DNA from: Seiridium cupressi
Taxonomy: Eukaryota > Ascomycota > Sordariomycetes > Amphisphaeriales > Sporocadaceae
Assembly: GCA_036674765.1 (NCBI GenBank)
Contig: JARVKI010000059.1
Location: 62,001 to 126,000, forward strand
Reading direction: 5' to 3'
Length of the DNA: 64,000 bases
The position numbers and the translations under genes are program-made. The first letter of the stretch is position 1. Every line of letters starts with the position of its first letter. The notes below the pieces were generated by a model. The model searched no databases and was not told the origin of the DNA. It worked only from the letters and a program-made list of their open reading frames with translations. Positions 50,796-52,423 of the stretch are shown piece by piece.

Positions 50796-52281
50796 TCACT
50801 AGCTGCGAATGCGTTCGATCGCAGGTATAGTCCCATAGACAGGCAGTGTTTAGTTACATTAATAAGGATTGATATTGGGTTCGCAGCCGCTTGATATAAT
50901 AACACATGTTTCTATTGGTAAGCAATTCCTCTACCTAGTTTCTTACTTGCCAGGTCACTGTATTCCCTCTCCTAGACCTCGGAGCTGCCATCCTCTGAAG
51001 GTTATCTATCGGTCAACTGAAGGCAGGCACCTGCGGCACGGTCGGCCAATCATTCACACTATAAAGTGAGTTCGATATGCCAATAGCTTCAGCTATGAAC
51101 ACAAAGTCAAAGACTGTCATGTTAGTGTATCGGACCCAGCACTTGGACACCCATCAATGGGCCGGTGCCAGAATCAGCGGCTCGTTGCCATCCTCAGTAA
51201 CTGTTAAACATTTGAACCTTTCTCGAGACTGATGACATCAGAAGGCGATACGGCGGTGGCATGTATATTACTCATGGCTCCAGCGCCAACTACTATCTTA
51301 GGGATCCGCAGAAGGATGACTAGGTTGTATTAGTTTAGTAATTTTGATTCGAGTGGTAATGTTGTCTTATATTTATGCCAACAAAAGCTACTTGAGCCTT
51401 CTTCGGGAAAATGCCTATGGACTCAAACCAGACTATAAAAGATGCACCCCATTTCCATAACTCATATCAATGACGAGGCTTGACCACGAAAATGTATCGA
51501 GGTTGGGGTTTTTTATGTTCATATACCTTGAGAGCCTTGACAGTGGCTCATTGGTTTCATCCACCTAGCACATTAATATACTTAAAAGTGCTAACAAGAC
51601 TTGCAACCGGAAATCACTCAAGCAGTAATTGCAGTTGGCTTGAATCATACTTCGGGATTGTTCAACCTGCTCTTGAACTCGAGAGACCAAACTTGCAAGC
51701 CGTTTTTGCGATTTTCAACCCACCTCTGGCTACTATGTAATTGGCTACCTCCGCAGATCATTATATGGAGCCCAAGCGTGTCGCAAATGTAAAGACTAAA
51801 TATATTTAAAAGCAGCGGCCACGCGACATAGCATATGCGAAACCCTTTTACATTACAAGCCACGCTTCGGAGTTCGTCGCACGGTGAGGGACACAGTAAT
51901 CAACGTACATATAACGCTCCTTAGTGCATCTAATGCCCCTAGAACCACGAGAAGGGTGAAAGGCCTTAGCGAGATGAGAGAATGAGTGTTACAGACGAAG
52001 CAAAATCTTTACGTCTTAAAAGCCCCACAAGTTTTAACGTTATCGACCTGCGTTTACGTATTTATTCTCTTCGTTCTCATCTATTCTAGAGTATGTAATC
52101 TCTGATTCTCGGAGAGCAAAAGATGCGCTACGAAAAGACGTGGAGAAGCAGAGTAGGGCCGTCGGCGCGAGTGCCAGGTATTAGCTCGGTCCACAACACT
52201 AGGTCCTGATCGACGCCTAGTACCATGTATCCTATTATTTACGCCGTCATCAACAAGCGCTGTTGGTCTAGCGGTATGATT

Positions 52282-52340
52282 GTAAGCCGAATAACCCGAT
52301 TATTCCATCTCACAATAGGTCACTAACATGGAATCAATAG
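52282..52340 (+). other. spliceosomal-type intron inside the tRNA gene
   Basis: A 59-nt insertion falls exactly between tRNA positions 26 and 27. It begins GTAAGC, contains CACTAAC (52321-52327) as a branch site 13-15 nt before the end, and ends AATAG. Size and signals match the mRNA introns in this window. A 7-bp inverted repeat (ATTCCAT / ATGGAAT) brackets the branch region. Nothing resembling the bulge-helix-bulge of a tRNA endonuclease site is evident at its ends. Confidence 0.8.
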
Positions 52341-52351
52341 CTCGCTTAGGG

Positions 52352-52368
52352 TCCACCCTAAACACTCC
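52352..52368 (+). other. canonical tRNA anticodon-loop intron
   Basis: A 17-nt intron after position 37. It contains CCCTAA, perfectly complementary to the loop sequence TTAGGG, forming the anticodon-intron pairing expected for recognition by the tRNA splicing endonuclease. Confidence 0.85.
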
Positions 52369-52418
52369 TGCGAGAGGTCCCCGGTTCGATCCCGGGATAG
52401 CGCCTAACGTTATCATCC

Positions 52419-52423
52419 TTTTT
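52419..52423 (+). terminator. RNA polymerase III terminator
   Basis: TTTTT beginning 15 nt after the mature tRNA 3' end, the standard Pol III stop signal. Confidence 0.8.

Follow-up and report, generated by a model that had tools for sequence, protein, structure and literature searches.

A tRNA-Pro(AGG) gene of Seiridium is interrupted between positions 26 and 27 by a 59-nt insertion which, judged from its sequence, is very probably a true spliceosomal (U2-type) intron in a functional Pol III gene. With this one included, introns of the same kind number at least ten and are spread over eight tRNA genes. The ten spliceosome-type insertions found occupy five sites (23/24, 26/27, 27/28, 46/47 and 53/54), and nine of them lie between the A box and the B box. 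Both of the initiator tRNA-Met genes found in the genome are among the interrupted genes.

Structure of the tRNA-Pro(AGG) gene

The DNA analyzed, referred to below as the window, is a stretch of 64,000 nt (C59:62001-126000) from the Seiridium genome, which comprises 45.4 Mb in 228 contigs. An eIF2B-gamma protein encoded in the window shares 99% identity with one of Seiridium unicorne and an acyl-CoA ligase 92% with one of S. cardinale, and on these grounds the genome most probably belongs to Seiridium (Sordariomycetes, Amphisphaeriales, Sporocadaceae). The tRNA-Pro(AGG) gene occupies 148 bases of it, 52257-52404, and contains the 59-nt insertion at 26/27 and a 17-nt intron in the anticodon loop. 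Its features are the following, where C38a, C38b and C16 denote the paralogous copies described in the next section.

52251-52256, plus strand: leader CAACAA, from the sequence, also directly 5' of the C38a and C16 copies; possibly the start site
52257-52281, plus strand: exon 1, positions 1-26, identical in the C38a and C16 copies
52264-52274, plus strand: A box TGGTCTAGCGG of the Pol III internal promoter, from the sequence, assigned by the consensus
52282-52340, plus strand: spliceosome-type intron of 59 nt at 26/27, GTAAGC...CACTAAC...TAG, from the empty site in C16 and the signals of the paralogues
52282-52287, plus strand: 5' splice site GTAAGC, invariant across the three Pro(AGG) insertions
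52321-52327, plus strand: branch-site motif CACTAAC, in which the branch A is presumably 52326, with 14 nt to the intron end
52338-52340, plus strand: 3' splice site TAG, from the sequence
52341-52351, plus strand: exon 2, positions 27-37, with the anticodon AGG at 52348-52350, from ARAGORN on the joined exons
52352-52368, plus strand: anticodon-loop intron of 17 nt, tRNA endonuclease type, from ARAGORN on the joined exons
52369-52404, plus strand: exon 3, positions 38-73, with C73 at 52404, from the joined exons and the paralogue comparison
52383-52393, plus strand: B box GGTTCGATCCC, from the sequence
52405-52415, plus strand: 3' trailer TAACGTTATCA, identical in the C59, C38a and C16 copies
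52419-52423, plus strand: T5 terminator of Pol III, from the sequence

The original prediction had listed the A box, the B box, the T5 terminator, C73 and both introns as parts of this gene, and every one of them is present where it was placed. In the raw window the unspliced gene is called neither by ARAGORN nor by Rfam at the gathering threshold, while removal of the 59 nt lets ARAGORN return a full cloverleaf tRNA-Pro(AGG) of 72 nt with the 17-nt anticodon intron. The motif CACTAAC fits the fungal branch consensus RCTRAC/RCTRAY and its spacing of 6-36 nt before the acceptor, as given in PMC5832005.

A likeness of the insertion to the mRNA introns of neighboring genes had also been claimed. 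It holds for two of the three protein-guided mRNA introns of the window, one of 55 nt (GTGAGT..CTAAC..CAG) and one of 79 nt (GTAAGT..CTAAC..CAG), but not for the third, of 225 nt (GTACGA..TAG). An ab initio intron scan of the window yielded a noisy set, with 15, 9 and 8 introns at rising thresholds against 13, 9 and 3 in the reversed control, and lends the likeness no support.

Group I or II self-splicing introns were considered and rejected, as there is no Rfam match to them in the window at the gathering score and the insertions are 49-61 nt long. Introns of groups I and II are far larger.

Paralogous tRNA-Pro(AGG) genes

A search of the genome with the tRNA as a query revealed four Pro(AGG) genes, three with an insertion at 26/27 and one without, and all four carry a 17-nt intron at the anticodon-loop site. 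A comparison with other tRNA-Pro copies had been proposed as a check, and this genome contains copies with and without the insertion. The two further interrupted copies, C38a (C38:299610) and C38b (C38:309576), are 10 kb apart and contain insertions of 60 and 55 nt, respectively, at the same site as in C59. The fourth copy, C16:21630-21717, is an exact empty site, which has no 26/27 insertion and retains the anticodon intron, the leader and the trailer. The presence of this empty site and of two further interrupted paralogues indicates that the 59-nt insertion is not a product of chance. The C16 copy could represent either the ancestral state or a partly spliced precursor returned to DNA.

The mature tRNAs of C59, C38a and C16 are identical in 72 of 72 bases, while the intron interiors and the flanks differ. 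C38b differs from C59 at nine of the 72 mature bases, and eight of these nine form four compensated stem pairs. When nine changes were placed at random 200,000 times, four or more compensated pairs never arose. The four compensated pairs suggest that C38b was a working tRNA throughout its divergence. Evidence of purifying selection on the mature sequence is given by the Pro(AGG) family only.

The three Pro(AGG) insertions were aligned with MAFFT, and the invariant columns amount to 13 of 13 within the donor, branch and acceptor signals and 10 of 47 elsewhere (Fisher p 2e-7), in an alignment which by its nature favors matches. The mature sequences appear to have evolved under the demands of tRNA function, and the insertions to have retained mainly the elements required by a spliceosome.

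A separate observation concerns the trailer TAACGTTATCA, which is constant in the C59, C38a and C16 genes despite their diverged flanks and intron interiors.

Other interrupted elongator tRNA genes

Use of the Pro A-box region as a query led to a Pro(CGG) gene at C46:111935-112128, which contains two insertions in addition to an anticodon intron. The first lies at 27/28 (GTTTGT..CTGAC..TAG) and the second at 53/54 (GTAAGT..TTAAC..CAG). The latter splits the B box, and its final AG followed by TTCAAATCC nearly rebuilds the box. In this gene a C replaces one of the D-loop G residues, which is normally invariant, and the gene may be weak or decaying. With their insertions removed, all four interrupted Pro genes are recognized by ARAGORN as canonical tRNA-Pro.

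Two more genes came from an RF00005 search, in which 63 of 1321 candidates were scored. An elongator Met gene at C13 and a Lys(UUU) gene at C26 both contain an insertion at 46/47, GTTCGT..CTAAC..TAG and GTAAGC..CTAAC..CAG, respectively. ARAGORN names the joined sequences His and Glu; with a shorter intron limit the first becomes Met(CAT) and the second is still called Glu. Their identity rests on the Rfam tRNA matches (37.1 bits for Met and 44.8 bits for Lys), on the Met paralogues and, for Lys(UUU), on reading of the stems by eye. A tRNA-Ser gene at C106 was also considered as a carrier of an extra intron and was rejected, since by eye it has an ordinary anticodon intron.

Clean copies are present for Pro(CGG) at C3, a diverged gene, for Pro(UGG) at C16 and for elongator Met at C20 and C185, and precise empty sites are available in two families, Pro(AGG) (C16) and elongator Met (C20, C185). 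Given the clean copies, the interrupted Pro(AGG), Pro(CGG) and elongator Met genes could be dispensable.

Among the lysine genes, the one at C41 is called Lys(UUU) by ARAGORN, has an unrelated acceptor stem and A73, and is of unsure identity, and the Lys(CUU) genes (6 loci) have by eye a T at position 73.

Initiator tRNA-Met genes

The anticodon-arm pattern GCNNGGCTCATAACC occurs at two places in the genome, C22 and C55, each of which is an interrupted initiator tRNA-Met gene. The gene at C22:71222-71348 contains a 55-nt insertion at 23/24 (GTAAGT..TTAAC..CAG), while that at C55:218696-218885 contains 61 nt at 23/24 (GTAAGT..CTAAC..TAG) and 57 nt at 46/47 (GTAATT..CTAAC..CAG). ARAGORN calls neither of the two unspliced genes. 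With the insertions removed, both become canonical tRNA-Met(CAT) with an A1:U72 pair and an ATCGAAA T loop, and by eye their T stems differ in three compensated pairs. The cloverleaf, the A and B boxes and the terminator are thus present without the insertions in the four Pro and both initiator Met genes, all correctly named by ARAGORN.

An uninterrupted initiator gene was found in this genome neither by the anticodon-arm pattern nor by a DNA search with the joined exons, which together are not exhaustive. The joined-exon search recovered C22 and missed C55, the exons of which are 22, 23 and 27 nt long; an uninterrupted 72-base relative should be easier to detect than C55. As both initiator genes found carry such introns, we infer that the spliceosome would be needed for making initiator tRNA.

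Supply of the intact tRNA by other copies alone had been named as one sign of a dead copy. Such a supply is possible for Pro(AGG), where C16 lacks the 26/27 intron and the 52257-52404 gene need not be essential; of the initiator, both genes found are interrupted.

The interrupted genes might instead be dead copies, in which mRNA-like DNA landed in one tRNA gene and spread by duplication, with other genes supplying the tRNA. The clean genes for Pro(AGG) (C16), Pro(CGG) (C3) and elongator Met (C20, C185) are in line with this, as is the changed D-loop G of Pro(CGG) at C46, and PMC4090602 describes short D- and T-arm insertions in eukaryotes as occurring mostly in one of many synonymous tRNA genes, supposed pseudogenes. 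However, dead copies would not be expected to keep 72 identical mature bases despite diverged interiors, or four compensated pairs as in C38b, nor to keep their splice signals, and one type of insertion is found at five different sites. That both initiator genes found are interrupted, with no clean one found, also speaks against dead copies, and this explanation is considered highly improbable.

Splice signals and the role of chance

All ten insertions start with GT and end with YAG. The donors are GTAAGC in four of them, GTAAGT in three, and GTTTGT, GTTCGT and GTAATT in one each; GTTCGT and GTAATT depart from the consensus. A YTRAC motif is present in every insertion, with 10-15 nt from the branch A to the intron end. 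The branch motif matches RCTRAY in eight of the ten, and the remaining two, GTTAAC and ATTAAC, depart from it.

Every insertion passes a signal test of the form GTNNGY or GTAATT ... YTRAC ... YAG. When background windows of 49-61 nt were taken from the two strands of the 64-kb window, 39 of 1,662,570 passed, or about 2 in 100,000, and some of these 39 may be real mRNA introns. GTAATT was admitted to the test once the intron that starts with it had been seen; in the earlier version the result for the first seven insertions was 7 of 7 against 34 of 1,534,692.

In a mechanical scan, each stretch of 45-70 nt with GTNNGY or GTAATT, YTRAC and YAG was cut out singly and ARAGORN was run on the joined flanks. 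In the window one of 48 removals gave a tRNA across the join, and this is the gene at 52257-52404. The own-genome loci (219,194 bases, including overlapping copies and the locus of the window gene itself) gave 180 candidates, 21 of them with a tRNA and seven distinct, which correspond to the six single-insertion genes and, in C38b, one alternative that overlaps the first. Removal of a single stretch cannot reveal the two genes that have two insertions each, and no ninth interrupted gene appeared in the scan of these loci. In the controls no tRNA was obtained from the reversed window (0 of 90), the reversed own-genome loci (0 of 221) or prokaryote and viral loci (0 of 243). A chance origin of the insertion signals was rejected in view of the background of the signal test and these controls.

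The spliceosome might remove the introns chiefly as a means of control, with intron retention lowering or timing the tRNA supply. Control at the supply of initiator tRNA is plausible, and the Pro(AGG) family includes a clean gene beside the interrupted ones. Most of the signals, however, are near consensus and do not suggest weak, regulated splicing, and gain by reverse splicing followed by drift explains the pattern without a function; a primarily regulatory role is regarded as very unlikely. Silencing of the gene by the extra intron, which the original prediction had offered as an option, is likewise unlikely for the class.

Extent of the phenomenon in the genome

The loci examined contain 92 distinct ARAGORN calls, among them some miscalled genes and repeats that resemble tRNAs. 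Interrupted genes account for four of the 92, three of them misnamed, and with the genes that escaped ARAGORN (C59, C46, C22 and C55) the total is about eight interrupted genes in 96. An exact GGTTCRANYCC B box followed by T4 occurs at 99 places in the genome, of which 97 are in the examined loci and two, C79:105245 and C174:9516, outside them. For 25 of the 55 loci added for B-box places there is no ARAGORN call, and by eye these are repeats, coding or unclear. The exact-B-box loci examined contain no such insertion beyond those of the three Pro(AGG) genes. The count of eight interrupted genes is a lower bound, with tRNAs having other B boxes incompletely covered. In the tRNA list, itself incomplete, genes for Cys, Ser-GCU, Leu-AAG and Thr-UGU were not recognized. 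A pattern of CTAAC followed by a T arm matched 90 places as compared with 291 in the control, and only Met at C13 and Lys at C26 were recognized from the text of the matches.

Searches of other collections returned no comparable gene. The Pro pattern matched nothing in GTDB and one viral contig in IMG/VR, where inspection by eye of the surroundings showed no tRNA. The initiator pattern matched 6 loci in IMG/VR and 57 in GTDB, with CTCATAA within 220 nt in none of the 63 matches, and a plasmid search gave nine records covering at most 14% of the query.

Repeated tRNA-like stretches with a B box and a T run were also noticed at six loci; by eye they are perhaps tRNA-derived short repeats.

Removal of the introns

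Introns outside the anticodon loop have precedents, some of them assigned to a different route of removal. According to PMC4090602 and PMC9602550, Cyanidioschyzon merolae, nucleomorphs and archaea likewise have more than one intron per tRNA, in the D, anticodon and T arms. The original prediction had held that nuclear tRNA introns are cut by the tRNA endonuclease and lie 3' of position 37. The statement on position does not stand, as introns outside 37/38 in Cyanidioschyzon, where they are assigned to the endonuclease, and in nucleomorphs are already described in PMC4090602. For nucleomorph tRNA introns the mechanism is said in the same source to be unknown.

On the model of Cyanidioschyzon merolae and archaea, the extra introns of Seiridium might be substrates of the tRNA splicing endonuclease. 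In favor of this are the Cyanidioschyzon introns in the D, anticodon and T arms (PMC9602550) and the archaeal introns, which are found at 53/54 among other sites (PMC4090602). The latter source assigns the archaeal and Cyanidioschyzon introns to the endonuclease via the bulge-helix-bulge motif, whereas in Seiridium the strict motif is absent and mRNA signals are present. The 4-bp central helix of the motif is lacking at all ten junctions, where 0-2 of 4 pairs can form (0-2 of 4 at the seven junctions of the first set and 1 of 4 at all three initiator junctions); the test used a fixed register and the strict motif, a 4-bp helix between two 3-nt bulges, and relaxed motifs may escape it. When the three interrupted Pro(AGG) precursors were folded, their energies did not stand out from those of shuffled sequences (z -1.05, -0.84 and 0.13), the C38a and C38b stretches being off the gene ends by a few bases. 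All ten insertions carry the GT, branch (YTRAC) and YAG signals, none of which endonuclease introns are known to require. Cleavage of the extra introns by the endonuclease is considered highly improbable.

The best reading of the Pro(AGG) gene is the one originally predicted, in which the spliceosome and the tRNA endonuclease each have to act on its precursor; the type of insertion recurs, its signals are kept and the strict bulge-helix-bulge is lacking, and the removal itself is inferred. In the proposed sequence of events, Pol III would make the precursor from the internal A and B boxes, and U1, U2 and U4/U6.U5 would recognize GTAAGC, CTAAC and YAG. In the nucleus the spliceosome would cut out the intron as a lariat, while the anticodon intron of Pro(AGG), Pro(CGG), elongator Met and Lys would be left to the tRNA endonuclease and ligase.

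Other Pol III genes and the origin of the introns

The U6 snRNA gene at C33:71722-71822 contains a 50-nt intron, GTAAGC..TACTAAC..AAG, with AAG as the acceptor. Two further U6-like matches over the cut-off, C55:27051 and C12:574434, are diverged and by eye have no intron (47 of 2623 candidates scored). For 5S rRNA, 28 of 39 matches are over the cut-off, all 119-121 long and uninterrupted (47 of 2256 candidates scored). The U6 intron and the tRNA insertions together indicate that, among the Pol III genes of this genome, two kinds or more contain mRNA-type introns.

As proposed for U6 of fission yeast, the introns might have originated when an excised intron was reverse-spliced into a small structured RNA, which was then copied back to DNA. 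The intron type shared with U6 is suggestive of such an RNA-mediated gain by reverse splicing.

Relation to known systems

The U6 snRNA of fission yeast and other fungi has an mRNA-type intron, as does the U6 gene at C33, and fission yeast offers a precedent for splicing of a U6 precursor by the spliceosome (PMC10484740). The Seiridium case differs in that the host is a tRNA and not a part of the spliceosome, that several tRNA families and five sites are involved, and that some of the interrupted genes also carry an endonuclease-type intron. Fungal U3 snoRNA genes are similar in having normal GT-AG introns with an RCTRAC branch in a small structured RNA, and eight genomes are reported with both interrupted and clean U3 copies (PMC5832005). 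According to this 2017 paper, frequent interruption by an intron is known for no small structured RNAs other than U3 and U6; tRNAs are not mentioned there. The text of PMC4090602 (2014), which deals with non-canonical tRNA introns, contains no word beginning with "spliceosom".

Canonical anticodon-loop introns are represented in the same Pro(AGG) gene at 52352-52368, and the new introns, in contrast, are not at the site 3' of position 37. Among the literature matches listed, from a collection with few subscription papers and no bioRxiv preprints, none was seen by its title or the beginning of its abstract to describe nuclear tRNA genes with spliceosomal introns. We regard the insertions as introns of a known class whose host genes are of a new class.

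Implications for tRNA maturation

The introns of tRNA and of mRNA are taught as two separate systems with separate enzymes. With mRNA-type introns in at least eight tRNA genes, both of the initiator genes found included, the two splicing systems would meet in one precursor. If this is true, exons of only 22-27 nt do not keep the spliceosome from processing the tRNA precursors made by Pol III, and Seiridium offers a natural test bed for intron gain in small RNAs by reverse splicing. The programs used to find tRNAs can overlook genes interrupted in this way.

In Seiridium the spliceosome is probably an obligatory enzyme of tRNA maturation, through which all initiator tRNA-Met would pass, with some tRNAs needing the endonuclease as well and the start of translation tied to the mRNA splicing machine. 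The supply of initiator tRNA would then depend on splicing.
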